Shown here in pieces: positions 11,566 through 42,637 of a DNA stretch of 53,140 nucleotides. The notes under the pieces were generated by a model. It saw only the letters and a program-made list of their open reading frames with translations. It searched no databases and was not told where the DNA came from. The translations under genes and the position numbers were made by a program. The stretch comes from Pseudomonadota bacterium (GTDB lineage: Bacteria > Pseudomonadota > Gammaproteobacteria > Burkholderiales > Burkholderiaceae_C): contig JAJZVU010000026.1 in NCBI GenBank assembly GCA_021845505.1, forward strand, positions 1 through 53,140, read 5' to 3'. Position 1 is the stretch's first letter, and each line of letters starts with the position of its first letter.

Positions 11566-11686
11566 GGGATGTTTCCGTCACGCCGAGCGTGGGTAGCGTC
11601 GAACCAGGGTGCGAATGGGGTGATGCCGCGGGCCGGGTTGATTCCGGCCAGCGGCGGGCGGCGAGCGCATCGAGGAGATCCCCGAT

Positions 11687-12613: not shown

Positions 12614-12655
12614 TCGATGCCTCCGGCGGCGCCGGCGAGGTGCGCGGCGCCCACG

Positions 12656-13426: not shown

Positions 13427-14184
13427 CCCATGAAGAGTCCGCCGTTGACGTCGAGCACCGCGCCGGTGGTGAAGCTCGACTCCAGGCTCGCGAAATAGCA
13501 GGCCGCCAGCGCGACCTCCTCGGGTGTTCCGATACGCCCGAGCGGAAATCGGCTGAGCAGTTGCCTGTGCGTCTCCGGGTCACGCGAACGGGACATGTCC
13601 GACTCGATCGTTCCGGGCGCCACGCAATTGACGGTGATCCCGTCCTGCGCCAGCTTGCGCGCCAGTCCGTAGGTGAGGGCGATCATCCCGCCCTTCGAAG
13701 CCGTGTACGGCATGCCGTTGGCATAGCCGCCCATGCGGCCCGCATTCGACGAGATGTTGATGATGCGCGGGGCACGCGCTTCGCGCAGGTAGGGCAGGCA
13801 CTTTTGCGCCATGAAGAACGAAGCCTTGAGATTCACGTCCAGCACCCGATCCCAGGTCTCCTCGTCGGTCTGCTCGACCGGGTCGAGGTCGAGTACCCCG
13901 GCGCAGTTCACCAGGATGTCGATCGAGCCGTGGTGAGCGTGCACCGCACGCAGGACCGGCTCGATGCATGCCAGATCCGACAGATCGCACGGCCAGATCG
14001 ATGCGGCGAGCCCGGCGTCCTGGAAACGCTGCTGGGCGCGCCCCAACCTGGCCGGGTTCGACGCCAGCAGGGCGACCCCGAGGCCGGCCTGGGCGAACTT
14101 CAAGCCGATGGCCGAGCCGATGCTGCCCGAGCCTCCGGTGACGATCGCCACCCGCTGGCCGAAGGTGAAAAGCTGCTGCGTCAT
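13423..14184 (-). CDS. Short-chain dehydrogenase/reductase (FabG-like)
   Basis: 253 residues of the classical SDR family. It has a TGGSGSIG cofactor loop at about residues 16-23, an NCAG motif, the active site SSNAGRMGG...YTASK, and a C-terminal VNGG. The frame is open upstream, but the ATG at 14184 places the Rossmann loop at the normal position and overlaps the ATP-grasp stop as ATGA. Both ends of the gene overlap neighbours by 4 bases. The substrate is unknown; context suggests a sugar or acyl group added to the glycan. Confidence 0.85.
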   Translation of the reverse strand: MTQQLFTFGQRVAIVTGGSGSIGSAIGLKFAQAGLGVALLASNPARLGRAQQRFQDAGLAASIWPCDLSDLACIEPVLRAVHAHHGSIDILVNCAGVLDLDPVEQTDEETWDRVLDVNLKASFFMAQKCLPYLREARAPRIINISSNAGRMGGYANGMPYTASKGGMIALTYGLARKLAQDGITVNCVAPGTIESDMSRSRDPETHRQLLSRFPLGRIGTPEEVALAACYFASLESSFTTGAVLDVNGGLFMG

Positions 14185-15464
14185 GGCTTCGTGGCCGGGT
14201 TGTACATGGCGAGCAGCATATCTTCGCCGTGTTCGTCGACGACCGAAAGATGGTCGCGGATGAAGCGGACCCGCTCGAGGCTGGCCTCGCGGGTCGGGGC
14301 CATGGTGTAGATGCGTGCCAGAACCTGGCGCTCGGTGCCGGTCATCTCCGGCGTGACCAGGTCGCCCTCGCGCAGCCGTTGCAGCACGGTCAACGTGCCG
14401 GGATGCTCGGCGATGCTCCGCAGCCCGCGCACCCGACCGATCCGGCCTGCGCGCAGCAGCGCCCAGACCGTGGTCGCATGGTGTCCCTTGAAACGCGGAT
14501 CGTTGACCTCGCCGAAGGCGCCTCGATACATGGTTCCGGTCATCGCCAGATCGATCAGCATTTCCCGCTGGTCGAACCCCTGCAAGTGCCTGAGATAGAG
14601 ATGCGGGGCCTCGCCCTGCAGCCGGAATCCCGGGTCGTAGGCGTAGAAGCCGTCGGTGTCGACGAAGAACTGGATCAGCAGGACGGCGTTGCGGATTTGC
14701 AGATCGGCGAACATGCGCAGCAGGGACGGGTGTACCGTCCGCAGGAAGCGGTCGAGGTGCCGGCTCGGGTACTCGGCCGCGATGCATACCGGGCTACCCC
14801 CCTGGTCCGCGGCCTTGTGGCGATCGGCGGCGGCCGAGAGGTACGCCTGTCCGTCGACGAAGGTGTAATAGGCGAACATGTCGTCGCAGTCCATGAAGCG
14901 CTCGATCACCAGCTGCTTGCGCGGCGATGCGGCCAGCGCGAGCGCGACACCCGCGGCGAATTCGCCGGCATTGCGGCAGACGGAGACGCCGACGCCTGCG
15001 CCGCAGTCCGTGGGCTTGACCACGACCGGGTAGGGCAGCGACGCCACCGCGCGCGCGTCGGCCGGGTCGACGTCGAATGTCGGAGTGGTGGGAATGCCGT
15101 GCCGGCGGCAGGCGTCGATGAATCCCGATTTCGACGTCAGCGCGGCCACGCTGCGCGGGTTGGCGTAGCACGGCATGCCGTGCCGGTCGCACAACTGCTG
15201 GTAGTAGGGGACGAGCGGGTCGGCTACGCCCACCAGGATGCCGGTGATGTGCTCGCCGGCGATCACGGTGTCGATCGCGGCAAAATCCTTGACGTCCAAG
15301 TCGTATGCACGCCGCGCATGACGCTTGGCCGGCGCTCCCGGGTAGGGGTCGACCACGACGGTGCGCAGCCCCATCGTATTGGCGACGTCGACGATGGCCC
15401 CCGTCTCCGGATTGCCGCCGAGGATCAGGATGCTTCGCTCCTGCGCATGATCCCGTGGACTCAT
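14181..15464 (-). CDS. ATP-grasp carboxylate-amine ligase-like enzyme
   Basis: 427 residues. The N-terminal pre-ATP-grasp Rossmann part (ILILGGNPETGAIVDVAN) is followed by an ATP-grasp region (TSKSGFIDACRRHGIPTTPT, YPVVVKPTDCGAGVGV, QLVIERFMD, then FYAYDPGFRLQG). Such enzymes join a carboxylate to an amine or thiol using ATP, as CarB, PurT or LysX do. In this operon, next to a sugar aminotransferase, it may acylate an amino sugar with an amino acid or other acid. The ATG at 15464 overlaps the GT2 stop. The exact reaction cannot be stated from sequence. Confidence 0.8.
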   Translation of the reverse strand: MSPRDHAQERSILILGGNPETGAIVDVANTMGLRTVVVDPYPGAPAKRHARRAYDLDVKDFAAIDTVIAGEHITGILVGVADPLVPYYQQLCDRHGMPCYANPRSVAALTSKSGFIDACRRHGIPTTPTFDVDPADARAVASLPYPVVVKPTDCGAGVGVSVCRNAGEFAAGVALALAASPRKQLVIERFMDCDDMFAYYTFVDGQAYLSAAADRHKAADQGGSPVCIAAEYPSRHLDRFLRTVHPSLLRMFADLQIRNAVLLIQFFVDTDGFYAYDPGFRLQGEAPHLYLRHLQGFDQREMLIDLAMTGTMYRGAFGEVNDPRFKGHHATTVWALLRAGRIGRVRGLRSIAEHPGTLTVLQRLREGDLVTPEMTGTERQVLARIYTMAPTREASLERVRFIRDHLSVVDEHGEDMLLAMYNPATKP

Positions 15465-16702
15465 GATCGCGGCCCCCGCGGCAGGAAGGTGATGGGGTCG
15501 AATCCATTGGATTCGATGAACGACGCGAATCCCATGCGCGGCGGAACCACGCGACGGATCCTGTCCTGGGGAAGGCCGTGGCGGACGAACAGCGCGGCAA
15601 CCTCGGCGTGGACTGCGGGATCGAAGGAAGCCAGCACAAGCCAGTCGAAGTCCGTACCGGCAAGCGCGGAGGGGTCTTCGACGTCCATCTTGAGGAGGCG
15701 GTTCTCGCGGAAATCGCGATCGAACCAGCCGACGCAACGCAGTTCGGGGTTGTCGCGCAGCTGCCTGTAGACATGCTGGCCGAACGATCCCGAGTTGTAG
15801 AGCGCGATTCTGGAGCCGGGCTCGAGTTCGCCGAACGGTTGGTAGTCGCGGTAGCGCAGCGGATCTCCCAGATAGGCGCCATGGCGAATGATGAGCAGTG
15901 CGCACAGGTAGGCCTGCAACTGCCGAAGGAATGCGTAGCGCGTGTCCTGGCGAGCGCCCAGCGCCTGCGCCATGTAGCCGAACCCGCGTGACATCCGCGT
16001 GGCCTCGGCATGCGTGAACCCCTTGGCCTGGAGAATGGAGTTGGGCCGGTGGCGGTAGTTGTAGAGCGTGAGGTCGCTGAGGTAGATCGACTTCGCTGCG
16101 AGGATCGCCGGGTAGACCAGCGCGGCATCCTCGCCGAAGGTGATCTCATCGGGCACGCGCTGCTGCAGTGCGTCGATCAGGCTGCGTCTGTACAGCTTGC
16201 CCCAGGAATAGGTCCGGATGCCGTGCTGGAAGAAATCGCCCGCCTGGATCATCGCGGGCAGCACCTGCTCCTGCATGCGCAGTGCCGGATAAAGGCCGGT
16301 GGGCAGCGCGTTGTGGGCATATGAGAAATTCCCGAGAAACTCCCGCTTGTGGCCGCCGATGACCATGTCCACGTCGTGGCGCCGGGCCAGATCGTGATAG
16401 GCCTCCAGGCAACCCGCATCGAGCCAGTCATCGCCGTCCACGTAGAACGCATAGTCTCCGCTGGCGTGGGCGAGGCCGGCCTTGCGGGCGCTGACCAGGC
16501 CCCCGTTGGGCTTCGCGATCACCTGGACCCGGGAATCGGCCTTTCGAAAGAACTCGCAGATTTCCAGGGCCGCGTCGGTCGAGCCGTCGTCGACCAGGAT
16601 GATCTCCAGGTTCCGATACGTCTGTTCGACGAGGCTCTGCACGCATTGGTACAGATAGGCAGCCAGGTCGTAGATCGGAACGATGACGGAAATGCGGTCC
16701 AT
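15461..16702 (-). CDS. GT2 family glycosyltransferase with C-terminal nucleotide-binding-like domain
   Basis: 413 residues. The first 250 residues are a GT-A/GT2 domain: ISVIVPIYDLAAYL, LVDDGSTD, the KPNGGLVSARKAGL loop and YVDGDDWL as the DxD metal site. From about residue 290 there is a second part (RIALYNSGSFGQHVYRQL, CVGWFDRDF) that resembles the Rossmann-like tail found on some polysaccharide GT2 enzymes. It would transfer a sugar onto flagellin or a lipid carrier. The start at 16702 is 2 bases from the SMP-30 stop. Confidence 0.87.
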   Translation of the reverse strand: MDRISVIVPIYDLAAYLYQCVQSLVEQTYRNLEIILVDDGSTDAALEICEFFRKADSRVQVIAKPNGGLVSARKAGLAHASGDYAFYVDGDDWLDAGCLEAYHDLARRHDVDMVIGGHKREFLGNFSYAHNALPTGLYPALRMQEQVLPAMIQAGDFFQHGIRTYSWGKLYRRSLIDALQQRVPDEITFGEDAALVYPAILAAKSIYLSDLTLYNYRHRPNSILQAKGFTHAEATRMSRGFGYMAQALGARQDTRYAFLRQLQAYLCALLIIRHGAYLGDPLRYRDYQPFGELEPGSRIALYNSGSFGQHVYRQLRDNPELRCVGWFDRDFRENRLLKMDVEDPSALAGTDFDWLVLASFDPAVHAEVAALFVRHGLPQDRIRRVVPPRMGFASFIESNGFDPITFLPRGPRS

Positions 16703-16704
16703 GG

Positions 16705-17586
16705 TCAGTCGATGCGGGCGGTCGCGGGCGGCAGGCCGCGCGTGGCGTGGCCGCGGATCTCGAACAGGCGGCCCGCGAGGGGGTATTGCCCGCGAGCGTG
16801 TTCGCTCATCTCGACCGCGGCGCTGGAGACGAGCAGGCGATCGAGCCGGGGCCCGCAGAAGCACACGTTGGTGATGTTCGGTGCCGGCAGGTCGAAACTG
16901 CGCAGGATCCCGCCGTCGGGGGCGATCTGCAGGACCCGACCGCTTCCCCACATGGCCAGCCAGAGATTGCCGTCGACATCGAAGCACATGCCATCGGGGA
17001 GGCCGTCGCCGGCACCGAAGCGCAGGAAGGTCTCGCGCCGGGAGATGGTTCCGCTGTCCAGGCAGAAGGCGTACCGGTAGACGATGCCGCGCGAGGTGTC
17101 GTTGGCGTAGAGGAGGCGATCCCCAGGGGCGATTGCGGGGCCGTTGGTGACCCCGAAGCCACGGTCGTGAATGGTCACGCCGCGCTGCCGGGTGAAGCTC
17201 GCCACCCGGCCCTCCGCGCTGCCCTCGCCGCCGTCCGGCATGCTTGCGTACCAGATGCGCCCGGCGCGGTCGGCGCAGGCATCGTTGAGCCGGCAGAGCG
17301 GGTCCCCGGGAAAGCTCCTGTCGAGCCAGCGGAGTTCACGCCGCCCCTCGGTGTCCACGAGTGCGATACCCGTCTTCAGACCGACGGCGTGTTGTCCGGC
17401 AAGGGGCGTCGGCAGCACCCAGCCGATGGCCTCGGGCATCGGCCAGACGCGGCTGGCGCCGTCGGCGATGTCCACCTGCAGCAGGCACCGGCCGACGATG
17501 TCGACCATCAGCAGTCGCTCGCTCGCGGCATCCCAGTGGAGGCCTTCGCCGAGCTGGCATGGAGCCCCGGGAAGGACGTCGATCAT
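16705..17586 (-). CDS. SMP-30/gluconolactonase-like protein
   Basis: 293 residues of the SMP-30/regucalcin beta-propeller family. Family motifs are LGEGLHWDAASERLLMVDI near the N-terminus, RLNDACADRAGRIW, VTNGPAIAPGDRLLYANDT and PDGMCFDVDGNLWLAMWG. The metal ligands Glu (LGEG), Asn (VTNG) and Asp (PDGM) are all present, so a lactonase activity is plausible. Members hydrolyse sugar lactones. Its place between a methyltransferase and a glycosyltransferase suggests a side step in making an oxidised sugar. Confidence 0.82.
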   Translation of the reverse strand: MIDVLPGAPCQLGEGLHWDAASERLLMVDIVGRCLLQVDIADGASRVWPMPEAIGWVLPTPLAGQHAVGLKTGIALVDTEGRRELRWLDRSFPGDPLCRLNDACADRAGRIWYASMPDGGEGSAEGRVASFTRQRGVTIHDRGFGVTNGPAIAPGDRLLYANDTSRGIVYRYAFCLDSGTISRRETFLRFGAGDGLPDGMCFDVDGNLWLAMWGSGRVLQIAPDGGILRSFDLPAPNITNVCFCGPRLDRLLVSSAAVEMSEHARGQYPLAGRLFEIRGHATRGLPPATARID

Positions 17587-17600
17587 GCTGCAGACACGCC

Positions 17601-18182
17601 TCAGTCGACGCGCTCGAATCGCATCGCGCGCGGGTCGGATTCGCTGCGTGTGTCGTCACCGTTGCGCGCGATCGCGCAATAGTGCAGCGGGAACAGGTTG
17701 CGGCCCGGCGTGTGCAGCTTGTCGAATTCGACGACCTCGAGGTCGCGGAACAAGACCTGCAGGCCGAATTCGGTGAATCGCCAGCAGTCGGGAACGGGGC
17801 CGTGGATTCGCGCGTTGAGTGGGGTGGTGAACAGCATCCAGCCGCCCGGTCTGGTGATCCTGCGCAGCTCGCGGACTGCGGCGAAGGGGTCCACGACGTG
17901 TTCCAGCACTTCGGTGCAGAGCACCGCGTCGAAATGGGCGTCGGGAATGTTCGCGTTGTGCGTGGTGATGTCGGCGACCATGTCGGGAGCCGTCGACGGC
18001 GTGATGTCCAGGGTGATCAGCCTGAAATCCCGCAGTTCGGGAACCGCCTTGCCTTGATTGCCGACATCGCAGATGACGAAGTCACGGCGGAGGTAGCGCT
18101 CGACGAAGTGCCGGCGCTTTTGCGTGATGAACGCCCGCGACAGAGGGAAGTGCGTCTCGTCGAATTCGGATGGCAGTGTCAT
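17601..18182 (-). CDS. SAM-dependent methyltransferase, class I
   Basis: 193 residues. The motif I region is unusual (FVICDVGNQGK rather than the common VLDxGxGxG). The later motifs are typical: DAVLCTEVLEHV and RITRPGGWMLFTTP. Such small enzymes often methylate sugars in O-antigen or flagellin glycans, and methylated 4-amino-4,6-dideoxy sugars are known on Pseudomonas flagellins. It lies 14 bases before the SMP-30 gene. The acceptor is not known. Confidence 0.8.
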   Translation of the reverse strand: MTLPSEFDETHFPLSRAFITQKRRHFVERYLRRDFVICDVGNQGKAVPELRDFRLITLDITPSTAPDMVADITTHNANIPDAHFDAVLCTEVLEHVVDPFAAVRELRRITRPGGWMLFTTPLNARIHGPVPDCWRFTEFGLQVLFRDLEVVEFDKLHTPGRNLFPLHYCAIARNGDDTRSESDPRAMRFERVD

Positions 18183-18242
18183 GAATGTCTTCGGTCGTGC
18201 GGCTCGGCGGCGGCGGCAAGGGTACCTGAGCGGGTCAGGACA

Positions 18243-19040
18243 CTAGAGCGGGTCATGCAATCTGGCACCGATCCCTCCGCTCATGTCGATGCAGGAACCG
18301 TGCAGGAAGCGCAATTCGTTGGAATTGACCTGGAAGACGAGTTCGGCGACCTCGGCCGCGCTGGCGATCCGGCGCTGCGGATGGTGGTCGCGAAGATGCT
18401 GCAGCTTCTCGGGTGCCGAGCGGAAGCCGTCCTGCAGCATCGGCGTGCTGACCGATGCCGGTTCGACGCAGTTGACGCGGAAGCGATCCTCGAAATCGAG
18501 CGCAAGCCCGCGCGTGAGGGCAGCCAGCGCGGCCTTGGTCGTCGCGTACGCGAGGAAGCCGGGCTTGGTCAGACGCGCGTGGATGCTGCCGACATTGACC
18601 ACGCTGCCATCCCCGCGCTCAAGCTCGGCTGCCAGGTTGCCGACCAGCAGGTACGGCGCCAGCACGTTCACGTCGTACGATTTCTGCAATTCGTCCACTG
18701 CGATCGGATGAACGCGCGACACATGCTGGTGGGCCGCGTTGTTGATCAGCGCGCGCAGCGGTTGGCCGGCAAGCCAGTTCCGGATGCGGGTCAGCGTATG
18801 GTCACGCGCGCGCTCGTCGTTGACGAACGCATGCAAGTCGGCCCGGATGTACATGTCCAGGGTCGACGCCGGCGGTGGCTCGACGCGGTCGATGCCGCAG
18901 ATGCGATACCCGGCTGCCTGGAAGCGCGCTGCAATCGCCGCACCGATCGCCCCGGCCGCGCCGGTGATCACCGCGCACCCGGGTTTGCGTGGGTCGGCGG
19001 CGTCGGCGACACCGGGCGGCGAATGGATGGAAGTCGGCAC
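18243..19040 (-). CDS. Short-chain dehydrogenase/reductase
   Basis: 265 residues from the GTG at 19040, which comes one base after the aminotransferase stop and has AAGGG about 8 bases before it. An ATG at 19076 in the same frame would overlap the aminotransferase by 35 bases and seems less likely. SDR motifs are TGAAGAIG, NNAAH in place of NNAG, the Ser in VNVGSIHARL and YATTK, and CVEPASVSTPM. It is the second gene of the sugar operon and may act on the product of the aminotransferase pathway. Confidence 0.8.
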   Translation of the reverse strand: MPTSIHSPPGVADAADPRKPGCAVITGAAGAIGAAIAARFQAAGYRICGIDRVEPPPASTLDMYIRADLHAFVNDERARDHTLTRIRNWLAGQPLRALINNAAHQHVSRVHPIAVDELQKSYDVNVLAPYLLVGNLAAELERGDGSVVNVGSIHARLTKPGFLAYATTKAALAALTRGLALDFEDRFRVNCVEPASVSTPMLQDGFRSAPEKLQHLRDHHPQRRIASAAEVAELVFQVNSNELRFLHGSCIDMSGGIGARLHDPL

Positions 19041-19041
19041 C

Positions 19042-20151
19042 CTAGCGGCCCTTGCGGACGATCGCGATGATGGCATCCTGATCGGATTCGCTCAGATCGG
19101 GGTAGATCGGCAGACACAGCACCTGGTTCGCCCGCCGGCGCGCCATGTGCAGCGGATGGCCGCCGGCTGCGCCGAATTTCTTGTAGATCTGGAAATCCGG
19201 AATGATCGGATAGAAGTAGCGCCGTGCATGCACATCGATGCGCTTGAGTTCGCGGTGCAGGGCGTCGCGCTGGTCACCGGTGCCGTCGCCTACGAAGATC
19301 GGAAAGTAGGCATGGTTGTGCCAGGTGTGTTCGTCCAGGCTCAGGCATTCCACGCCATCGAGTCCCTCGAAGGCCTTTCGGTACCGTGCGTCGATCGCCT
19401 GACGCCGGTCGCGCACGCTGCTTGCATACTTCAGTTGCAGCAGGCCCATCGCGGCGCTGACCTCGCTCATCTTGCCGTTGATGCCGGAGGCCGCGACCAT
19501 CGTCTCGCCGACAAAACCGAAATTGCGAAGTTTGTCGATGCGGCGCTTGGTCTTCGCGTCGGCGCAGACGATGGCCCCGCCCTCGAAGGTGTTGAACACC
19601 TTGGTCGCGTGGAAACTCAGCACCGACAAGTCGCCCCACTTCAGCACGCTGTCGCCGCGGTGGCGCACGCCGAAGGCGTGCGCCGCGTCGTAGATGACGC
19701 GCAGGTTGTAGTTGTCGGCGATCTCCTGGATCGCTTCGACCGCGCAGGGCTTTCCGTAGCAGTGCACCGGCAGGATCGCCCGCGTGTGGTCGGTGATCGC
19801 CGCCTCGATCTGCGCCGGATCGAGGTTCAACGTGAGCGGATCGATGTCGACGAACACCGGGATATTGTTCGTCCACAGCAGTGAATGGGCGGTCGCGATG
19901 AAGGTATAGGGGGTGGTGATGACCTCGCCCTGCAGGCGCAATGCCTGCAGCGCGATGATCAGACCGACGGTTGCGTTGCAGACCAGCGAAACGTGTTCGA
20001 CGCCCAGATGCTCGGCCAGCCGCGCCTCGAATTCTTCGTGATAAGGGCCCGCGTTGGTAAGGATTCCGCTGTCCCATATTTTGCGCAGATAGTCCGTGTA
20101 TTCTTCCAGCGGGGGAAGAAACGGCTTGGTTATGTAAATCGGGCCGGACAT
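19042..20151 (-). CDS. DegT/DnrJ/EryC1 family sugar aminotransferase
   Basis: 369 residues of PLP-dependent fold type I. The Schiff-base lysine lies in SFHATKVFNTFEGG (around residue 183). PLP contacts are seen in VYDAAHAFG-like IYDAAHAFGV and the NATVGLIIAL loop. Homologues such as VioA and FdtB transaminate dTDP-4-keto-6-deoxyhexoses to give 4-amino-4,6-dideoxy sugars like viosamine. The start at 20151 gives MSGPIYITKPFLPPLEEYTDYL, normal for the family. It is the first gene of the ten-gene sugar operon. Placement next to flgL suggests flagellin glycosylation. Confidence 0.87.
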   Translation of the reverse strand: MSGPIYITKPFLPPLEEYTDYLRKIWDSGILTNAGPYHEEFEARLAEHLGVEHVSLVCNATVGLIIALQALRLQGEVITTPYTFIATAHSLLWTNNIPVFVDIDPLTLNLDPAQIEAAITDHTRAILPVHCYGKPCAVEAIQEIADNYNLRVIYDAAHAFGVRHRGDSVLKWGDLSVLSFHATKVFNTFEGGAIVCADAKTKRRIDKLRNFGFVGETMVAASGINGKMSEVSAAMGLLQLKYASSVRDRRQAIDARYRKAFEGLDGVECLSLDEHTWHNHAYFPIFVGDGTGDQRDALHRELKRIDVHARRYFYPIIPDFQIYKKFGAAGGHPLHMARRRANQVLCLPIYPDLSESDQDAIIAIVRKGR

Positions 20152-20446
20152 GGCTGGGCAGGCGGTGGGGTCGTTCGACGCGATCGTCTCGATGCGGCTG
20201 GTGCGGGCACGGCCGTCCTCTGGCGTTTCCAGGCGACACGCCGACGACCGGCGTCTGCGCGGAAACGGCCCGACGGGACTGCCGGTTGCCCGCAGAGTAA
20301 CCTGATTGCCGCCGCGTGCAAAGTCCGCAATCGCTTCGCGGGACCTTTCCTCGGGTTGCCGGCCGCACGGTTCCAATACCGGGCGCGGGCGGGTGGATCG
20401 GTGCCGGGAATAATCGGCAAACGCCGCCTGGTCGCGCCGGTGGCTC
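20152..20446 (-). other. Intergenic region between flgL and the sugar operon
   Basis: About 295 bases without a gene. It should hold the promoter of the sugar operon. A weak sigma-70-like pair on the minus strand, TTGCAC then TACTCT 16 bases later, lies around 20295-20325. A GCCGATTA matching a sigma-28 -10 lies near 20410-20420 on the minus strand but has no TAAAG-like partner 11 bases upstream. No clear terminator for the flg operon was found, so read-through from flgL is possible. Confidence 0.4.
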
Positions 20447-31516: not shown

Positions 31517-31743
31517 TCGCCGACAAAGCCCGCATAGTCGTGCAAAAGGTCTATTTCATCGTTTTTTCTGTAGGCAAAAGCGGTTAAAAGTCGCTCCTTT
31601 GCCGATCGAGCCGCATTCGTCGACGGCGGCGCGGCGCGGCCTCGCGCCGCCCGGGCGGCAAGGCCTTGCCGCTTGCCGCTGCCGCCCGGCGAGGCTGTCG
31701 CAGGGGGTGCGCGGTGGTACGGACCTTGCAAGCCCGGGTCCAC
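31517..31743 (+). other. Divergent region ahead of flgA
   Basis: About 227 bases upstream of flgA. An AT-richer patch at 31545-31610 (runs of T and A, TAAAAGTC at 31585-31592, GCCGATCG at 31601-31608) stands out from the GC-rich surroundings. The two elements look like sigma-28 boxes, but the spacer is 8 rather than 11 bases. No sigma-54 site facing flgA was found. The likely flgA promoter is somewhere in this patch. Confidence 0.4.
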
Positions 31744-32562
31744 ATGAACCCCTCCGATCGATCCCGGCCCGCGCCGGACAGCCTGTCGCGGTGGCGCTCG
31801 GCGACGTCCGCTGCCGCGCTGGCCCTCGTGCTGATGGGCGGCGCGGGCGCTGCCGAAGTCGCGCCCGCAGCGCCGATGCGCCATCCGGAGGTCGCGCCGG
31901 TGCGCCATCCGCCGCCCCCGTCCTGGGAGCCGGCGCAGGCGCTGCGCGCGGCAGCCGAGGACTTCGTGCGCAGCCATCTGCCTGCGGGCTCGGGGCGCGC
32001 CCGGGTGCGGCTGCGCGCCCAGTTGCCGGCCGCGCGCTTCCGCCGTTGCGCGCCGGGGCAACTGGTCGCGCAGGCCTTCGGCGATGCCAATCCCTACGGC
32101 GCGCAGACGGTGCAACTGCGCTGCCGGGGCCCGCAGGCGTGGTCGGTGTACCTGCCTGTGCGCGTCGACTGGCCGCAGCAGGTGGTGGTGGCGGCGCACG
32201 CGCTGGCCGCGGGCCATGCGCTGCGAGCCTCCGACCTGCAGGTCCTGCAACGCAACCGCGACGCACTCCCGCCGGGCTCGCTGCACAGCGAGGCGCAGGC
32301 CGAGGGCCGGGTGCTGACGGTCGGGGTCGCCGCCGGCCAGGGAATCACCCGGGGCATGCTGGCCGGCCGCACGCTGATCCACAACGGGCAGTCGGTGGCG
32401 CTGATCGCCGAAGGGCAGGGTATCCGGCTGGTCGCGCTGGGCGTGGCGCTGCAGGACGGCAGCCGGGGCCAGACCGTGCTGGTGCGCAACGCCCAATCGG
32501 GCAGGGTGGTCAGCGGGGTGGTCGATCGCCGGGGCGATGTGATCGCGGCACGCATGCGTTGA
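31744..32562 (+). CDS. flgA: FlgA, P-ring assembly chaperone
   Basis: 272 residues from the ATG at 31744; an upstream GTG at 31666 in frame would add 26. A hydrophobic segment near residues 20-37 (SAAALALVLMGGAGAAEV) looks like a signal peptide. The C-terminal SAF domain (about 140-270) shows AAHALAAGHALRASDLQVLQ and GRVLTVGVAAGQGITRGML. FlgA is a periplasmic chaperone for FlgI. It is divergent from flgB, a common arrangement. Confidence 0.92.
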   Translation: MNPSDRSRPAPDSLSRWRSATSAAALALVLMGGAGAAEVAPAAPMRHPEVAPVRHPPPPSWEPAQALRAAAEDFVRSHLPAGSGRARVRLRAQLPAARFRRCAPGQLVAQAFGDANPYGAQTVQLRCRGPQAWSVYLPVRVDWPQQVVVAAHALAAGHALRASDLQVLQRNRDALPPGSLHSEAQAEGRVLTVGVAAGQGITRGMLAGRTLIHNGQSVALIAEGQGIRLVALGVALQDGSRGQTVLVRNAQSGRVVSGVVDRRGDVIAARMR

Positions 32563-32693: not shown

Positions 32694-32708
32694 TGGCATC
32701 GCCTTTGC
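32694..32708 (+). promoter_or_regulatory. Sigma-54 (RpoN) promoter of the chemosensory-like operon
   Basis: TGGCATC-GCCT-TTGC, followed by T, with exact GG-N10-GC spacing. Only two bases of the -24 heptamer differ from TGGCACG, and the -12 TTGC is perfect. Transcription should begin near 32720, some 20 bases before the first mini-ORF. Confidence 0.78.
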
Positions 32709-32740
32709 TAGGGCCCTCTCACGCTCAGGGAGGAACCGCC

Positions 32741-32812
32741 ATGTCGGCAGCAGCGTTTGCGCAGATCCAGCAGCGCGCAGCGGCGTGGCCCCCACGAGCG
32801 CGGCCAACATGA
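32741..32812 (+). CDS. Short leader ORF (23 residues)
   Basis: A 23-residue ORF (begins MSAAAFAQIQQRAAAW) with the best Shine-Dalgarno sequence of this operon, AGGGAGGA at 32727-32734, 6 bases before its ATG. It is the first ORF after the sigma-54 promoter. Its TGA overlaps the next ATG as ATGA. No family is recognised. It may act as a translated leader that delivers ribosomes to the next genes, or be the remnant of a longer gene. Confidence 0.45.
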   Translation: MSAAAFAQIQQRAAAWPPRARPT

Positions 32813-32859
32813 ACCATCGACCCGATCGTCTGCGCGGCACGCCGGAGTTGCAGCCATGA
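32809..32859 (+). CDS. Second short leader ORF (16 residues)
   Basis: A 16-residue ORF (MNHRPDRLRGTPELQP) that starts inside the stop of the 23-residue ORF and ends in the start of the 911-residue protein, both as ATGA. It has no Shine-Dalgarno site of its own, so translation would depend on coupling. A tandem of two 4-base overlaps into a large gene is unlikely to be pure chance but is not proof of function. Confidence 0.35.
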   Translation: MNHRPDRLRGTPELQP

Positions 32860-35591
32860 ACCTGGCCAGCGCCAGCCTGCGCGAGTTGCGCGTCGCCTTC
32901 GGGGTGGATGCGCGGTCGTTCCTCGAGCAGTTCGACAGCGCGCTGCGGGGCGAGGCGCAGACTCCCGACCCCCGGGTGGGCGCCGCGGCCGGCGAGGCCT
33001 TGCGCGGCCTGCGCATCGGAGCCGAGTTCCTCGGGCTGCGCTCGCTGTCCCAGCTGTGCCGCGAGGTCGAGCGCGAACTGCTGGCGCCGCCTGGCGCGCC
33101 GCCTGAATCCGCCCAAGCCGGCGCGATGCGGGTGCGCCAGCTGGCGCAGGCGCTGCACCAGGCGCTGGGCGACGTGCTGGCCCTGGCCCCGCAGGACCCG
33201 TCGCCGGCGGGGTTGCCGCAGCAGCACCGGCGGGGCTCGCACGAACAGCCGCAGCCGGAGCAGCAGCAGCCGGAGCAGCAGCAGCCGGAGCAGCAGCAGC
33301 CGGAGCAGCCGGAGCGGACGCAGCGGCTCCAGGCGAGGGGTGTGCAGCAGCCGGGTGTGCCGCTGGATCGGCTCGGGGAGCCACGCGTCGACGAGCAGGG
33401 GTCTGCAAGGCTGGACGAGTCGGTGACCGGGCAGCCGCGTGCGCCGATCGAAGGCCTGAAGGTCGAGGACAGCGGGGCGGCAGCGGGGTCGCTCGAGCCC
33501 CCGCCAGGAGTGGAGCCGCCGCGGCAGCCCACGGCCGTGCAGGAGGAGGTGCCTGGGGAGCTTGCCGAGCCGGTGTCGCGGCTCGATGCATCGCGGGACC
33601 TCCTGGCGACCGCAGAATCCATCGAGCCGGCTGCCGCGCAGCATATGGCGGCCGACGAAGTGGTGGCGATGGCCGACGAGCCGGTGGCCGGGGAGCTCTC
33701 AGCGGGGGAATTCGTGGCGGGGGAATTCGCGGCCGGGGACCTGACGGCGGGGGAAGTCGGGCCCGAGGAGGTCGCGCTCCAGCCGCTTGAGGTCCCGCAC
33801 GTCGCGGCCGACGCATTCATGGTCGAGGAGTTCGTGGTCGAGGAGGCCGTGGTCGAGGAGGCCGTGGTCGAGCAGCCGGTGCCCGAGGAGTTCGTGGCCG
33901 AGGTGCCCGTGGCCCAGCAGCCGGTGGTCGTGCAGGCCGTGGTCGAGCAGCCGGTGGCCGAGGAGGTCGTGCCCGACGAGTTCGTGGTCGAGGTGCCCGT
34001 GGCCGAGCAGTCGGTGGTCGTGCAGGCCGTGGCCGAGCAGTCGGTGGCCGAGCAGTCGGTGGCCGAGGAGGTCGTGCCCGACGAGTTCGTGGTCGAGGAG
34101 GCCGTGGCCGAGGAGCCCGTGGTCGAGCACCCGGTGGCCGAGGAGTTCGTGGTCGAGCAGCCGGTGGCCGAAGAGTTCGTGGCCCGGCAGCCGGTGGCCG
34201 AGGAGTTCATGGTCGAGGAGTTCGTGGCCCAGGAGGCCGTGGCCCAGCAGCCGGTCGCCGAGGAGTTCGTGCCCGAGCAGCCGGTGCCCGAGCAGCCGGT
34301 GGCCGAGGAGCCGGTGGCCGAGGAGCCGGTGGCCGAGGAGCCGGTGGCCGAGGAGCCGGTGGCCGAGCAGCCGGTGCCCGAGGAGCCGGTGCCCGAGGAG
34401 CCGGTGCCCGAGGAGCCGGTGGCCGAGGAGCCGGAGGCCGAAGAGGCGGTGTTGCACGACGCCGTGGCCGGCGAAGCCGGGGGCGACGCAGTCGCGTGCG
34501 GGCCGCACCCCGCCGCGGGCAGCGCCGCCGAGCCAGCGCGGGCCGGGCTGTCGCCGGCGGCGCGGGAGCTGGTGGCCGGCGAGAATCGGGAGGCGGCGTC
34601 GCGGACGCCTGCCCGGCAGGAGGAACTGGCGATGCGGTCGCAGGTCGAGGAGTTCGCCCCGGTGCCGGACGAGGCCGTGCCTGGGGAGCCGGTGCAGCGG
34701 GTCCTGGAGCAGCCCCTGCCGGCGCAGCCCGGCGAGCCCGGAACGCGGCTGCCAGCCACGACCGGGGCAGGCGGCGGCCCGGTCGCGCCGCCTGCAGGCG
34801 CGCCGGAGTCCGGGCGCGCCTGTCGCTGGGACCTCGCCGATGCCTCGCGGCTGTTGCACGACGCGGTGGCGCCGCTGCAGGGCAGCCTGCAGCGGACGCA
34901 GGACTTGCTGCTCGACCAGCAGCAGGGCTGGCAGCGGCTGCGCGAGGAGTTGTTGCAGGCCCTGGCCGCGGCCGCGCCGTCGCAGCTGGCGGCGGCCGTC
35001 GCGCCGCCGCGGGAGCAGCCCGCCACGGCGCAAGCGGTGGACGCGCAAGGCGCCGACGCTCAGCGCGAGGCCGACGCGCCGCCCGCCTGGGATGGCGTGC
35101 TGCAGGTGCACCCGGCGCGCCTGGGCGAATGGACCGTGGCCCTGCCTTCGCAGTGCGTGCTCGGCCAGCTCAGGCAGCCGCGCGGCCTGCGCCTGCCTCG
35201 CGGCGAAAGCCTGGTGCTCAGCGAACTCGGCGCCCTGCCCGACGTCGGCCTGGAGGCGCCCTGGCAACTCGAGCCGGACCCCCTGGGCGCCGACGAATAC
35301 CTGCTGGTCGGCGACCGCCAGGCGGCCTATGCGTTGCGGGTCCAGTCCTGCCTGGAGCCGCGGGCTCTGCATTTCTGGTCCCTGCCGGTGGTGCTGGGTG
35401 CGCCGCTGGGAGTGGCCGCCGCCGCGGTGCTGGACAGGCCCGCGCTGGCGGCGGGCGCGTCGCCGCGCGCCAGCGACCTGGTGCTGCTGCTCGACCCCGG
35501 TTTCATCGCCGCCCAGCATGCGGCGGCGCGCGAGGCCGCGGCCGGCGAGGGCGCGGTGCAGGCGGATGCGGCGCGAGAGGTCCCGGCATGA
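32856..35591 (+). CDS. CheA-like scaffold: HPt-like domain lacking His, PVAEE-repeat linker, CheW-like domain
   Basis: 911 residues. Residues 1-110 resemble an HPt bundle, but the site expected to read AHxLKG is ALRGLRIGAEFLGL, with no phosphorylatable His. Residues 129-153 are Gln/Pro/Glu repeats. About 320-530 is a Val/Glu/Pro repeat (PVAEE). About 652-712 is helical (DASRLLHDAVAPLQGSL). Residues 745-905 look like a CheW fold (WDGVLQVHPARLGEWTVALP, YLLVGDRQAAYALRVQSCL). No HATPase domain is present. It is the first large gene of the sigma-54 operon and overlaps cheW-like gene 2 by 4 bases. It could be a kinase-dead adaptor like FimL or ParP. The function is not known. Confidence 0.75.
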   Translation: MNLASASLRELRVAFGVDARSFLEQFDSALRGEAQTPDPRVGAAAGEALRGLRIGAEFLGLRSLSQLCREVERELLAPPGAPPESAQAGAMRVRQLAQALHQALGDVLALAPQDPSPAGLPQQHRRGSHEQPQPEQQQPEQQQPEQQQPEQPERTQRLQARGVQQPGVPLDRLGEPRVDEQGSARLDESVTGQPRAPIEGLKVEDSGAAAGSLEPPPGVEPPRQPTAVQEEVPGELAEPVSRLDASRDLLATAESIEPAAAQHMAADEVVAMADEPVAGELSAGEFVAGEFAAGDLTAGEVGPEEVALQPLEVPHVAADAFMVEEFVVEEAVVEEAVVEQPVPEEFVAEVPVAQQPVVVQAVVEQPVAEEVVPDEFVVEVPVAEQSVVVQAVAEQSVAEQSVAEEVVPDEFVVEEAVAEEPVVEHPVAEEFVVEQPVAEEFVARQPVAEEFMVEEFVAQEAVAQQPVAEEFVPEQPVPEQPVAEEPVAEEPVAEEPVAEEPVAEQPVPEEPVPEEPVPEEPVAEEPEAEEAVLHDAVAGEAGGDAVACGPHPAAGSAAEPARAGLSPAARELVAGENREAASRTPARQEELAMRSQVEEFAPVPDEAVPGEPVQRVLEQPLPAQPGEPGTRLPATTGAGGGPVAPPAGAPESGRACRWDLADASRLLHDAVAPLQGSLQRTQDLLLDQQQGWQRLREELLQALAAAAPSQLAAAVAPPREQPATAQAVDAQGADAQREADAPPAWDGVLQVHPARLGEWTVALPSQCVLGQLRQPRGLRLPRGESLVLSELGALPDVGLEAPWQLEPDPLGADEYLLVGDRQAAYALRVQSCLEPRALHFWSLPVVLGAPLGVAAAAVLDRPALAAGASPRASDLVLLLDPGFIAAQHAAAREAAAGEGAVQADAAREVPA
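33255..33314 (+). repeat. 15-bp tandem repeat coding for Pro-Glu-Gln-Gln-Gln
   Basis: Three perfect copies of CCGGAGCAGCAGCAG at 33255-33299, then a shortened variant. They encode a Gln/Pro/Glu stretch just after the HPt-like domain of the 911-residue protein. The unit is a multiple of three, so copy changes would alter linker length and not the frame. Confidence 0.85.
33814..34445 (+). repeat. 15-bp tandem repeat array coding for PVAEE pentapeptides
   Basis: About 630 bases built from 15-base units of the type CCGGTGGCCGAGGAG (Pro-Val-Ala-Glu-Glu) and relatives such as TTCGTGGTCGAGGAG. From 34281 to 34445 there are eleven units in an unbroken row, several identical; the 5' part is more diverged. 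It encodes a long acidic linker in the 911-residue protein. All six frames are open here, which creates false ORFs on both strands. Confidence 0.9.
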
Positions 35592-36121
35592 ACGCGCAGC
35601 GCAGCCCCGCCACGGTGCCGCCGCCGATGGATTTCGCGCCGTCGCTCGCTGGAAGCTGGCTGCTGTTCGTCGTCGACGGCCAGGCCTGCGCGATCGACAG
35701 CCGGCAACTGCGCCAGATCGCGCTGGCCGACTCGTTGATCCGGCTGCCCGGCCCGCGCCTGGCGCGCTGGCCGGGGGTGCTGGCGTGGCAGCAGCGGGTA
35801 CTCGGTGTGTTCGACTGCGGCGCCGCCATGGGCCGCCGGCCGAGCCTGGGCGCCGTCGCGGCGCGCGTGCTGGTGGTGCAGGATCGGTCGCGCCTGTGGG
35901 CGCTGCTGGTCGACCAGGTGCGCGGGTTGCACCACGACAGTCCGACGCGCCTGATCGACGTGCAGCCGGGGCTGCCGCCACCGTGGAATGCGGTGCGCGC
36001 GCTGCTGCCGCTGCCCACCGACGACGGTGGCGAGGTCTGCCCGGTGCTGCATGTGCCTACCCTGTGCCAGGACGGCTGCGCGCCGCCGGCGCCCATCCAT
36101 CCTGCGGAGCTGCGAGCGTGA
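35588..36121 (+). CDS. CheW-like coupling protein
   Basis: 177 residues. The CheW fold is visible: SWLLFVVDGQACAIDSRQLR, LIRLPGPRLARWPGVLAWQQ then VLGVFDCGAAMG, LVVQDRSRLWALLVDQVRGL and a final VCPVLHVPTL. CheW/PilI proteins bridge receptors and CheA. Sequence divergence suggests it serves a special array rather than the main one. The ATG overlaps the previous stop (ATGA) and its own stop overlaps the next GTG (GTGA), so the three proteins are made together. Confidence 0.8.
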   Translation: MNAQRSPATVPPPMDFAPSLAGSWLLFVVDGQACAIDSRQLRQIALADSLIRLPGPRLARWPGVLAWQQRVLGVFDCGAAMGRRPSLGAVAARVLVVQDRSRLWALLVDQVRGLHHDSPTRLIDVQPGLPPPWNAVRALLPLPTDDGGEVCPVLHVPTLCQDGCAPPAPIHPAELRA

Positions 36122-37167
36122 AAATCACACCGACCCGTGCCATTGCCTGGATGTGGCTGCTGTGCAGCCTGTGGTTGCCTGGAATCTGGTGGCTGCAGAC
36201 CTTGCTGCCCGTGCATGCCGGCGCCGACCTGCCGAGCGCGCTGCCGGTGCTGGGCGGCGGGGTGCTGCTGCTGTTGCTGGCGGCGCTGTTCCTGGCGTTG
36301 AGCCTGCGCATCGAGCAGACGCGGCTGCGCATCGCGGTGCGCGCCGCGCTGCGCGGCGAGGCCGGCGCCGGCGCCGCGCCGGAGTGGCGGGCTCTGCTCG
36401 ACGATGTACGCCTGTCGATCCGCCGCCTGGGCCTGGAGCGCGAGCGCCTGGCGCTGCGCGCGCAGCGCGCCGAGGAGGCGCTGCGCGAGCAGGGCGAGCG
36501 TTCCAGCCAGGCTGCGCGTTCGGCCGAGGATTCGCTGCAACAGCTCGAGCAGCAGTGGCAGCGCCTGCTGCCGGCGCTGCCCTCGGCCGACGAGGGGCAG
36601 GCGCGGTTGCGTGCGCTGGAGGGTTCGACGCAGGCGATGGACGGCGCCCGGGAGCATGCGCGCGGCCTGCGCGAGGGTCTGGCCGGCGCGCAGGCCGCGC
36701 TGCAGGCGTTGCGACAGTCCGTGCAGGAACAGCGGGACGAGGGTGAGCGCGAGTTCCTGCAGCGCGCCACCCGGGTGGCCGAATCCCTGCAGTTGCTCAG
36801 CCTGAATTTCCGGCTGGCGCTCGAGCGCCTGGAACTCATCCCCGGAGTGCGCGGCGAGAGCCTGGATACCGTGGTGCAGGATGTGGAGCCGCTGTGCCTG
36901 CAGGCGACCAACCTGCTGGACAGCCTGCCGCAGGCGACTTCGCGGCCGCGCCTCGGCGTCGAGGCGTTGCAGCCGCTGGAGCAGGCGCTGCAGCCGCTGC
37001 CCGAGCGGGCCGCGAGCCTTCTTGCCGCACTGCAGCAGGCGAACGACGAGGTCCGGCAGGTGCTGCCGGAGGCCCAGGCGGCCGCCGCGCGCGACTGGCG
37101 GGCGATCCTGGAGAAGGTCCTGCGGGACGACGCGCCGGCGCCCGCAGCAAGCCTGGCCGACGGCTGA
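36118..37167 (+). CDS. Small membrane-bound MCP-like transducer
   Basis: 349 residues from the GTG at 36118, with GGAG 8 bases upstream. Two membrane helices lie at about 8-30 (AWMWLLCSLWLPGIWWL) and 41-63, with only a short periplasmic loop, so there is no ligand domain. Residues 90-210 are coiled coil. Residues 222-262 (LQLLSLNFRLALER, then GVRGESLDTVVQDVEPL) look like a decayed MCP hairpin tip, compared with ILALNAAVEAAR and GRGFAVVAGEVR in Tsr. No methylation sites could be identified. It could be the receptor for the CheW-like proteins encoded upstream. It is the last gene of the operon. Confidence 0.7.
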   Translation: MKITPTRAIAWMWLLCSLWLPGIWWLQTLLPVHAGADLPSALPVLGGGVLLLLLAALFLALSLRIEQTRLRIAVRAALRGEAGAGAAPEWRALLDDVRLSIRRLGLERERLALRAQRAEEALREQGERSSQAARSAEDSLQQLEQQWQRLLPALPSADEGQARLRALEGSTQAMDGAREHARGLREGLAGAQAALQALRQSVQEQRDEGEREFLQRATRVAESLQLLSLNFRLALERLELIPGVRGESLDTVVQDVEPLCLQATNLLDSLPQATSRPRLGVEALQPLEQALQPLPERAASLLAALQQANDEVRQVLPEAQAAAARDWRAILEKVLRDDAPAPAASLADG

Positions 37168-37383: not shown

Positions 37384-38988
37384 ATGGCCCTAACCGGCAT
37401 CATCAACACCAACGTCTACGCGCTCAATACCCTGAACGCGCTGGGCAACACTTCGAGCAACCTCAGTACCTACATCCAGCAACTGTCGACCGGCCAGCAG
37501 ATCAACAGCCCGGCCGACAACCCGGCGGGCTATTCGATCTCCCAGCGCTTCCAGACCCAGATCAACGGCCTGAACCAGGCGGTGTCCAACGGCAACCAGG
37601 GCGTTTCGCTGGTGCAGACCGCCACCAGCGCGCTGCAGAACCAGACCAACCTGCTGCAGCAGATCCGCACCATCGCGGTGCAGTCGGCGAACGCGTCGAA
37701 CACCACCGCCGACCGCCAATCGCTGCAGAACGTGGTCAGCCAGTTGCTGTCGCAGGTCCAGACCATCGCGACGCAGACCCAGTTCAACGGCCAGAACCTG
37801 CTCGACGGCACTTTCGCGGGATCGGCCTTCCAGGTCGGTGCGAACGCGAACCAGACGATCAGCGTGTCGATCGCCAACGCGCAGACGACCTCGCTGGGCA
37901 ATTTCGTGACCTCGGCTGCTTCGACCAGCCTGTACTCGTCGTCGGGTGCGTACTCGCTGGGCGGCAACCTGGCGGGCGGCGGCTTCACCGTCAGCAGCGG
38001 AACCGCCGGCGGCAATTTCACGTCGGGCACCTTCGCGATCTCGGGGTCGGTCGGCGACGCCACCGTCAACGTGCTCAGCGCGGGTTCCTCGGCCTACACC
38101 ATCGCCAGCAGCGTCAATGAGGTTTCGGCGCAGACCGGGGTCAGCGCGACCGCTTATACCAGCGTCGCGTTCTCGGTGAGCGGCGCCGGCAGCCTGAGCT
38201 TCTCGCTGAGCAACGGCACCTCGGGTTCGCAGTCCAACGCCGTCAATATCTCGGCGACCATCACCGGCAACGGAACGACCACCCCGTATGACCTGAGCTC
38301 GCTGGTCACCGCGATCAACAACCAGGCGTCGACCACCGGGATCTCGGCCTCGACCCAGACCGTGCAGGGAACCCAGGAGCTGGTCCTCACGCAAAGCCAG
38401 GGTCGCAACATCGTCATCGACAGCGGCAACAACAGCGGCGCCAGCGGACTGGCATCGGGTTCGACCGCCAAGCTGACGGTGGTCGCCAATACCCTGAATT
38501 CCGACGGAACGATCAGTTCGGGCTCGAGCCTGGCGACGCTGAGCTCGGGGGCTTCCGGGTTGACCATCCAGGGCGTGGTGCAGTTCGCGTCGTCGTCGTC
38601 GTACACCATCGGCAGCGGCTCGAACATCGGCTTCACGTCGCAGGCGGCGACCCTGACGACCGGTGTCGGCGGCTCCGCGGTGTCGAGCATCAACGTGTCG
38701 ACCGCGGCCGGCGCGCAGGCGGCGATCGCCGTGCTCGACCAGGCGATCAATACCCTGAACAGCCAGGGCGGTGCGCTCGGAGCGATCCAGCAGCGGATCC
38801 AGGCCTCGGTGTCGAACGCGCAGACGGCAGCGACCAACCTGGCGTCGGCGCAATCGGTGGTCAAGGATGCCAACATCGCGGCGGCGACCACCCAGTTGTC
38901 CAAATACCAGATCTTGCAGCAAGCGGGTATTTCGACACTGGCGCAGGCCAATGCGCTGCAGCAGAGCTACCTGAAACTGCTGCCGTAA
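37384..38988 (+). CDS. fliC: FliC, flagellin
   Basis: 534 residues. The conserved N-terminal D0/D1 region (INTNVYALNTLNALGNTSSN, QLSTGQQINSPADNPAGYSI, TQTQFNGQNLLDGTF) and C-terminal region (AIQQRIQASVSNAQTAATNL, QQAGISTLAQANALQQSYLK) are intact. The middle (about 170-430) is very Ser/Thr/Gly-rich, a likely O-glycosylation surface. Flagellin is exported by the flagellar type III system and forms the filament. It has GGAG 9 bases before the ATG, its own sigma-28 promoter and a terminator. It is probably a CsrA/FliW target. Confidence 0.97.
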   Translation: MALTGIINTNVYALNTLNALGNTSSNLSTYIQQLSTGQQINSPADNPAGYSISQRFQTQINGLNQAVSNGNQGVSLVQTATSALQNQTNLLQQIRTIAVQSANASNTTADRQSLQNVVSQLLSQVQTIATQTQFNGQNLLDGTFAGSAFQVGANANQTISVSIANAQTTSLGNFVTSAASTSLYSSSGAYSLGGNLAGGGFTVSSGTAGGNFTSGTFAISGSVGDATVNVLSAGSSAYTIASSVNEVSAQTGVSATAYTSVAFSVSGAGSLSFSLSNGTSGSQSNAVNISATITGNGTTTPYDLSSLVTAINNQASTTGISASTQTVQGTQELVLTQSQGRNIVIDSGNNSGASGLASGSTAKLTVVANTLNSDGTISSGSSLATLSSGASGLTIQGVVQFASSSSYTIGSGSNIGFTSQAATLTTGVGGSAVSSINVSTAAGAQAAIAVLDQAINTLNSQGGALGAIQQRIQASVSNAQTAATNLASAQSVVKDANIAAATTQLSKYQILQQAGISTLAQANALQQSYLKLLP

Positions 38989-42018: not shown

Positions 42019-42046
42019 TGAGCGCTTCGCCTGCCTCTTGCCTGCC

Positions 42047-42637
42047 ATGAACGAGCCCGCGCCGCCATCGACCTATCCGCCCGACCTGGGCGACGCCGCC
42101 GCGCCGGGCGTGCGCGGCGAAGTCGTCAGCCTGCACGCCAGGCTGCCGATGGACTGGGTGGAGACCATCACCCCGGAATCGGCGCTGGCCGACGTGATGG
42201 CCGACAACCTGACGCTGCTGCGCGCGTTGTGGATGCTCGACGAGCCGCCTGCGGCCGGCGACGCCGGCCGCGCCGAGGCGACGTCCCATCTCGAGCGTCG
42301 ACTCGATCTGCTGCTGCTGATGGCCAGCACCGCGCTGCGCGGCATGCAGCAACTGCCGCGCGAGCGCGACTGCGTGTTGTCGGCGCACCGCCTGTACTGG
42401 GCCAGCGAGGAGTCGATCGGGGTCGGCCGCCGCGTCTGGGCGCGCATCTGGTTGCGCCACCGCATCGCGCTGCCGTTGATGCTGCCGGGGCAGATCGTCG
42501 AGGAGGAGGTCGACGGCGAGCAGCTGTGGCATCGGCTGGACATCGAGGCGCTGGAACCCGCGTTGCAGAACGACCTCGAGCGCCTGGTGTTCCGCCATCA
42601 CCGCCGGCAGGTGGCGCGCCAGCGGGCGGGGCTCTGA
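42047..42637 (+). CDS. PilZ-like (atypical) motility protein
   Basis: 196 residues from the ATG at 42047. A helical N-terminal part (about 25-110, VVSLHARLPMDWVETITPES) leads to a C-terminal part reading IWLRHRIALPLMLPGQIVEE and LQNDLERLVFRHHRRQVARQ. This end resembles the C-terminal half of atypical PilZ proteins found downstream of fliS in other proteobacteria. The classical RxxxR and DxSxxG motifs are not seen, so c-di-GMP binding is uncertain. It lies 8 bases ahead of motD, suggesting a role at the stator. Confidence 0.5.
   Translation: MNEPAPPSTYPPDLGDAAAPGVRGEVVSLHARLPMDWVETITPESALADVMADNLTLLRALWMLDEPPAAGDAGRAEATSHLERRLDLLLLMASTALRGMQQLPRERDCVLSAHRLYWASEESIGVGRRVWARIWLRHRIALPLMLPGQIVEEEVDGEQLWHRLDIEALEPALQNDLERLVFRHHRRQVARQRAGL

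Follow-up and report, generated by a model that had tools for sequence, protein, structure and literature searches.

In the accessible part of a 2023 survey, the domains P1, P3, P4 and P5 form the core of every CheA, and CheA3/CheA4 pairs are a special case in the Rhodobacteraceae (PMC10782961). The P1 domain of CheA3 keeps its His, which is phosphorylated by CheA4, the middle of the protein consists of degenerate Hpt, P2 and kinase domains, and TlpC of the same system is without typical membrane, sensory and glycine-turn parts (PMC10782961, PMC2829493, PMC3964821 and PMC6829392, in their accessible parts). The available text of a 2010 survey gives the CheA3 layout as repeated in no complete genome searched, with an online domain search of that year returning it only in Roseovarius, Caldicellulosiruptor, Desulfuromonas and Anaerocellum (PMC2829493). 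ParP of Vibrio joins an N-terminal interaction domain, which binds ParC, through a long proline-rich linker to an SH3-like C-terminal AIF domain nearer to CheA P5 than to CheW, and this P5-like end on its linker is able to join arrays and to build them (PMC5706961, in part). FimL of Pseudomonas and Acinetobacter is homologous to the N-terminus of ChpA and helps to retain a response regulator at the cell pole (PMC10519157, in part). Here we analyse three genes, the trio, in a flagellar cluster of a Pseudomonadota bacterium of the Burkholderiaceae_C (assembly GCA_021845505.1; 3.7 Mb, 84 contigs), where the window is one entire contig of 53,140 nucleotides (JAJZVU010000026.1). Judged from sequence, gene 1 is a CheA reduced to both ends, without kinase and phospho-His, and the trio stands beside flagellin as a unit that is conserved and under selection.

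Inspection of open reading frames (ORFs) places the trio on the plus strand between flgA and fliC, as three ORFs, each stop overlapping the next start. Gene 1 (32856–35591) encodes a kinase-less CheA-like protein of 911 amino acids with a P1-like domain, a Pro/Glu-rich linker and a P5-like domain; gene 2 (35588–36121, 177 amino acids) is a divergent CheW that shares an ATGA overlap with gene 1, and gene 3 (36118–37167, 349 amino acids) is a membrane protein with a GTG start in a GTGA overlap with gene 2. The P1/HPt-like domain occupies the first ~110 residues of gene 1 (32856–33188), and a profile of this region found Thermotoga CheA P1 as its best match in the Protein Data Bank (PDB; 1tqg, E=0.009; 2ld6, E=0.015), while 8 of the 13 gene 1 members matched Pfam Hpt at E<=10 (best 0.004). 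When a wider N-terminal profile was run in six frames against 399 genomes of the order, 15 matched besides the window (E 1.2e-7 to 5.1e-4). Fourteen of these 15 loci were taken up and the eight best proteins read; seven are CheA with P3–P5, some cut at the locus end, and one is ChpA-like. The alignment with CheA P1 runs over the phospho-site without gaps (CheA HTIKGGAGFL, gene 1 RGIRIGAEFL), pairing the phospho-His with Arg50 (codon 33003–33005) and the conserved Lys with Arg53. An alternative alignment to a sensor-kinase HPt, with a 3-residue gap, pairs the His with Glu47, and His is absent there as well. Across 24 copies from 24 genomes and three genera, the phosphorylatable His of CheA is found in 0/24, being replaced by Arg in 23 and by Gly in one; some copies are near-identical, so these do not amount to 24 independent events.

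The domain is followed by a Pro/Glu/Gln-rich low-complexity linker (33189–34817) with a 15-bp/90-bp tandem repeat at 33820–34445. Other members carry a PE-rich linker too, and the 13 gene 1 orthologues span 433–911 amino acids, their length varying mainly between both end domains. Pfam matches of gene 1 to HC2 (6.8e-11, 43.1 bits, cut-off 40), PARP, TonB, DNA-polymerase-tau and adhesin were discarded and taken as low-complexity linker matches. A helical stretch (34818–34970, consensus AVEPLxxSLxQTxxLLREQxQGWxxLRE), which is fainter in distant members and, in the modelled FB-6 orthologue, forms part of a long helix, leads into an SH3-like domain at 35082–35552 that resembles CheA P5. Its profile gave three PDB matches at E<=10, two of them to the E. 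coli CheA P5 region (0.0085 and 0.016), and against 369 genomes of the class it matched 41 at E<=0.05, i.e., the window and 40 others; 18 of the 19 top-ranking places beyond the window share their frame with a CheA-type N-box, and one does not. Gene 1 of G166 and G153, split over contigs, entered the underlying alignment A5 in part. The AlphaFold model of the FB-6 orthologue retrieved eight PDB matches with Foldseek at E<=0.001, all of them CheA or CheA-complex entries, and Pfam CheW matched 2 of the 13 members (best 0.0064). P5 is thus present by both profile and fold. P2, the P3 dimerisation domain and the P4 ATPase domain had no Pfam match in the window's gene 1 or in 13 orthologues at E<=10. 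As kinase and phosphorylated His are both missing, gene 1 is probably a scaffold or adaptor and not an enzyme.

Gene 2 matches PF01584 (CheW) with 49.9 bits against a cut-off of 23.5 (E 3.2e-13), and its best PDB profile match is also a CheW (2.6e-6). Genes 1 and 2 are merged into a single ORF in two genomes, each from a different genus (G165, locus L172, where the N-terminus is off the contig, and G025, locus L167), and these fused ORFs end in a CheW domain (E 1.7e-17 and 1.1e-8). Gene 3 is predicted to have two membrane helices joined by a short loop and a helical cytoplasmic part, with no sensor domain. It includes a stretch, LLxLNxRLxLER, that resembles the tip LLALNAAIEAAR of methyl-accepting chemotaxis proteins (MCPs) and aligns on it in one profile alignment, where 1 of 40 shuffles scores higher; the gene 3 model (predicted local distance difference test score, pLDDT, 65) has a turn at 240–246. 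The MCPsignal family PF00015 left the window's gene 3 unmatched at E<=10 and is absent from the 25 of 34 Pfam families listed for the 13 members, the other nine being single-member matches with E above 1.2. When gene 3 was compared by hhalign with the genome's own MCPs, 1 of 40 block shuffles outscored alignment A6; for alignment A1, 4 of 40 did so, as did the reversed profile. Neither alignment includes the truncated gene 3 of G154. In a hidden Markov model (HMM) test the real score was reached by 0–5 of 40 block shuffles for 10 of the 13 members and by 23–36 of 40 for the other three; the motif was spanned solely by the window's best alignment, and the reciprocal profile gave 11.9 bits with 1 of 6 MCPs. 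A PDB profile search placed an MCP (E=0.22) after designed helical bundles and keratin, and Foldseek was unspecific.

The initial annotation had described three coupled genes inside the flagellar cluster, with an HPt-like fold lacking His, a PVAEE linker and no ATPase domain in the first and a CheW in the second. These features hold: the ATGA and GTGA overlaps and the flgA and fliC flanks agree with the layout, the CheA P1 matches and His-less copies with the fold, the PVAEE-type repeats with the linker, and PF01584 with the CheW, while an ATPase domain was matched in none of the three trio proteins or the 13 gene 1 orthologues. What was called a CheW-like end is indeed CheW-like, more exactly CheA-P5-like in view of the PDB profile, Foldseek and the N-box frames. 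For the two-helix MCP-like protein without sensor, the membrane helices stand, but the MCP likeness was left unconfirmed by Pfam, the hhalign shuffles and Foldseek. The cheZ gene and the cheA start at the contig edge, and the GGDEF gene of relatives, described below, are additions to that annotation. The kinase-less chemosensory-like scaffold proposed there is well supported, at the level of sequence, for genes 1 and 2 but not for gene 3 as an MCP; recruitment of the main array and placement of flagella, which it also put forward, are candidate roles. We give the trio an even chance of being a non-phosphorylating chemosensory scaffold or adaptor.

The trio is present in Thiomonas and two related genera (g49 and g26), adjoining a flagellin gene. 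Beyond the genus, the N-terminal profile run on 399 genomes of the family reached 5 genomes of g49 and one of g26; weaker matches in G099 and G127 were set aside because they look like ordinary HPt domains, and a match in G247 because it is short and contains a stop. Gene order runs flgA, a GGDEF gene, genes 1, 2, 3 and fliC in L164 (g49), and GGDEF gene, fused genes 1 and 2, gene 3 and fliC in L167 (g26); the g49 loci besides L164 were checked just for a GGDEF gene ahead of gene 1. The synteny flgA-(GGDEF)-1-2-3-fliC is kept across relatives. In the window, flgA lies at 31666–32562 (plus strand; ChapFlgA match, coordinates of the longest ORF) and fliC at 37384–38988 (plus strand). Two closely similar tandem flagellin genes lie 3' of the trio in the metagenome-assembled genome BP4.bin57 (L018, 2138–5488), and two also in L162 (g49).

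A sigma-54 (RpoN)-type promoter site, TGGCATCGCCTTTGCT, lies ahead of gene 1 at 32694–32709 on the plus strand. Scored against a consensus, it reaches 0.93 and is the sole site in the window, on both strands, with at least 0.9, seven sites scoring at least 0.85. A site of at least 0.93 lies within 1.5 kb 5' of gene 1 in all 13 distinct loci (L034 being a close sister of the window): ~1 kb 5' of gene 1 and ahead of the GGDEF gene in the 9 loci that have one, and 160–218 bp 5' of gene 1 in the 4 loci without. The sigma-54 promoter of the initial annotation is therefore upheld as a putative one.

Ratios of nonsynonymous to synonymous substitution rates (dN/dS), computed for seven pairs, were 0.08–0.40 for the gene 1 domains and 0.09–0.44 for genes 2 and 3, with point estimates below 0.45 in 7/7 and dS saturated in the L045–L047 pair; the gene 1 row of G173 (L041/L015) was dropped for a stop in frame. 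The linker, at 0.30–1.1, lends no support and is the weakest-constrained part of the protein in most pairs. These figures bear on the possibility that the trio is a decaying copy of a che operon, an idea suggested by the loss of catalytic domains and His and by the lack of a recognised MCP motif. Because of the low dN/dS of the domains we reject it as very improbable; the overlapping ORFs, the promoter and the synteny, all kept, likewise speak against decay. A stop interrupts one gene 1 frame, that of G173.

Occurrence of the trio follows that of flagellin within the genus. Of its 28 genomes, a single-protein search recovered gene 3 in 16 and a profile search the gene 1 N-terminus in 18; a Flagellin_N match above 100 bits occurs in 16, and 14 of these 16 have gene 1. 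The other two flagellin genomes (G172 and G156) have a frame directly 5' of fliC, near a contig end, that the single-protein gene 3 search missed and that we take as gene-3-like from its position and motif. Four further genomes have gene 1: the flagellin match is cut by the contig edge in G160 and G164, the contig ends inside gene 3 in G154, and G155, 82% complete, has no flagellin match. In the remaining 8 of 28, neither gene 1 nor gene 3 was found and no flagellin match exceeds 100 bits. This co-occurrence, together with the position between flgA and fliC, would also fit a factor for flagellar assembly or placement, built from CheA parts but without contact to the receptor array, e.g., a polar guide for flagellin export. 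We regard such a factor as unlikely: the P5-like domain and CheW are both retained, and fused in two genera, which suggests that array contacts are still in use, and contig gaps could drop linked genes together, a shared-contig loss that could mimic part of the co-occurrence of gene 1 and flagellin.

The operon is headed by a GGDEF gene, ahead of gene 1, in 17 of 21 loci, with the GG(D/E)EF motif intact in 16 of the 17 (GGDEC in L044) and Pfam GGDEF matches of E 2.2e-41 to 9.7e-43 in the three proteins tested; in the same three, the helical N-terminus matched no Pfam family. An RxxD stands five residues ahead of GG(D/E)E in the 17 GGDEF copies printed (e.g., L039, 6400–7320, and equivalents). 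This is the usual spacing of the inhibitory site. Two PilZ-type c-di-GMP (cyclic diguanylate) receptor genes lie in the window's cluster, at 5082–5813 and 42038–42637 (YcgR-like, tPilZ), and the position of the tPilZ gene 3' of fliD is kept in relatives whose loci extend there. Genes 1–3 might form a mini-array of their own, a distinct membrane complex without kinase that would sense the state of the envelope or flagellum and signal via the operon diguanylate cyclase. The frequent and mostly intact GGDEF gene, the membrane protein without sensor domain and the PilZ-type receptors in the same cluster are in its favour, but the trio occurs without a GGDEF gene in the remaining loci, the window included, and we assign this possibility a low probability.

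Returning to the scaffold or adaptor as the preferred reading, several results weigh against it. Single-protein Pfam scores of Hpt and of the P5-like end fall below the curated cut-offs. Foldseek with the FB-6 model places CheA P1 (1tqg) just at rank 14 (E 0.053, target-based template modelling (TM) score 0.81), and the gene 1 N-domain is matched equally well by designed four-helix bundles (TM 0.80–0.84), for which reason the fold by itself cannot pick out HPt. That model has a mean pLDDT of 57 and a predicted TM score of 0.30, with solely both domains near 80. The profile of the gene 1 C-domain is not near that of gene 2 (hhalign probability 7.6%). Gene 2 reads AWQ, by eye, where the genome's canonical CheW has NLRG, a motif whose Arg carries weight for CheW. 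The likeness of gene 3 to MCPs is unproven, and the GGDEF gene is missing in 4 of 21 loci (the window, L034, L040 and L043).

If the trio is a scaffold, the P5-like domain of gene 1 and the CheW of gene 2 would pair in the manner of P5 and CheW within core units, a pairing inferred from the fusion of the two genes in two genomes. The module might then enter or cap the flagellar receptor array or, alternatively, join the gene 3 membrane protein in small complexes that contain no kinase. The P1-like domain, with its His-to-Arg change and on a flexible linker, may hold a partner without phosphotransfer, as FimL holds PilG, and candidate partners are CheY, the CheA kinase domain and a polar landmark. 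In most relatives, the operon diguanylate cyclase would make c-di-GMP locally, where the module sits; DgcP-FimV, in the available part of PMC7033161, is an example of such a cyclase at a polar hub. Put together, these steps amount to a possible, tentatively proposed phosphorylation-free chemosensory branch made of the ends of CheA (P1 with Arg for His, and P5), the divergent CheW of gene 2 and a membrane protein lacking a sensor. Encoded together with flagellin and behind a sigma-54 site, this branch would organise or re-tune the array and be tied to a diguanylate cyclase in most relatives.

Components of the main chemotaxis system lie at the left edge of the window, on the minus strand and 32 kb from the trio: the start of cheA (1–121; P1, 40 codons) cut at the contig edge, its start set by eye as in the full cheA of L100 and L101, cheZ (221–778; PF04344, 35.9 bits, cut-off 30.7) and a cheY-like frame seen by eye. 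An early impression that the genome is without a flagellar CheA was rejected when this cheA start was found; because the contig breaks inside cheA, the gene is probably missing from the assembly and not from the organism. A search of the window's own genome for CheA-type P3 domains yielded just a ChpA-like frame of 2344 amino acids, which the cut in cheA would explain. Across the 28 genomes of the genus, CheA-type P3 matches number two or three in 22, four in 2 and one in 4, and ChpA-like frames of ~2200 amino acids are among them. In five relatives (G032, G151, G169, G170 and G175) a CheA-type P3 domain shares the contig with the trio, at a distance of 28–29 kb. With a target kinase thus at hand, and with a gene 1 product that has the end domains of CheA without catalysis, the module could be a dominant-negative competitor that lowers kinase output when flagellin is made. 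In that case the P5-like domain and CheW would occupy main-array positions of CheA and CheW, or the P1-like domain would bind CheY or the CheA kinase domain. A damper of this kind needs no protein of 433–911 amino acids with a flexible middle, no membrane partner and no GGDEF gene, and we consider it, by either route, rather unlikely.

CheA is normally defined by its kinase. If the proposed scaffold is real, a relative with the ends only would be a natural test of P1 and P5 without phosphorylation, in roles such as array building, partner capture and polar placement, and the tie to flagellin together with the relatives' diguanylate cyclase would make a link between array and c-di-GMP testable in Thiomonas. 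The flagellar cluster of the window also holds large non-flagellar ORFs at 7222–20376 (among them one of 1447 amino acids; by eye, sugar-nucleotide or dehydrogenase-like), possibly concerned with flagellin glycosylation. The accessible part of a Thiomonas motility paper describes a flagellar locus of 76 kb and, apart from it, a che islet, and leaves the trio unmentioned (PMC5481541). In NCBIfam no trio protein is a named family, the matches being low-complexity, coiled-coil or weak and none naming CheA, CheW or MCP, and a search of the literature, in which subscription papers were mostly outside reach, found no description of this gene set.

Among described systems, CheA3 of Rhodobacter sphaeroides has the closest layout. 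It shares with gene 1 the P1 and P5 ends around a very long middle without a working kinase, and the system to which it belongs (with CheA4, CheW4 and TlpT/TlpC) also has a CheW and an atypical receptor-like partner, like the trio. Unlike CheA3, gene 1 has Arg in place of the P1 His that CheA4 phosphorylates, its middle is of low complexity, its operon has no CheA4-type gene and its locus lies at fliC; the trio proteins fit neither the distribution given for CheA3 in 2010 nor the CheA core set of 2023. The initial annotation knew of no named system with this exact set and did not name CheA3. Its analogy with FimL and ParP is apt. Gene 1 has, as ParP does, a P5/CheW-like C-terminal domain behind a Pro-rich linker, whereas its N-terminus is CheA P1-like and that of ParP binds ParC, and the 19 best class-wide places of the C-domain lie in frames of 621–2412 amino acids, none of ParP size. 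FimL is a His-less HPt-like protein, a likeness that gene 1 shares by its residues at the phospho-site. In contrast, FimL is part of the type IV pilus system and is not known to carry a P5-like domain, while in other genomes the gene 1 N-terminus finds, among its best matches, mostly CheA of flagellar size. Gene 2 has the PF01584 fold in common with CheW but is without the NLRG motif and sits in a kinase-less operon. Overall, the module resembles ParP, FimL and CheA3 in parts and is a member of none of them.

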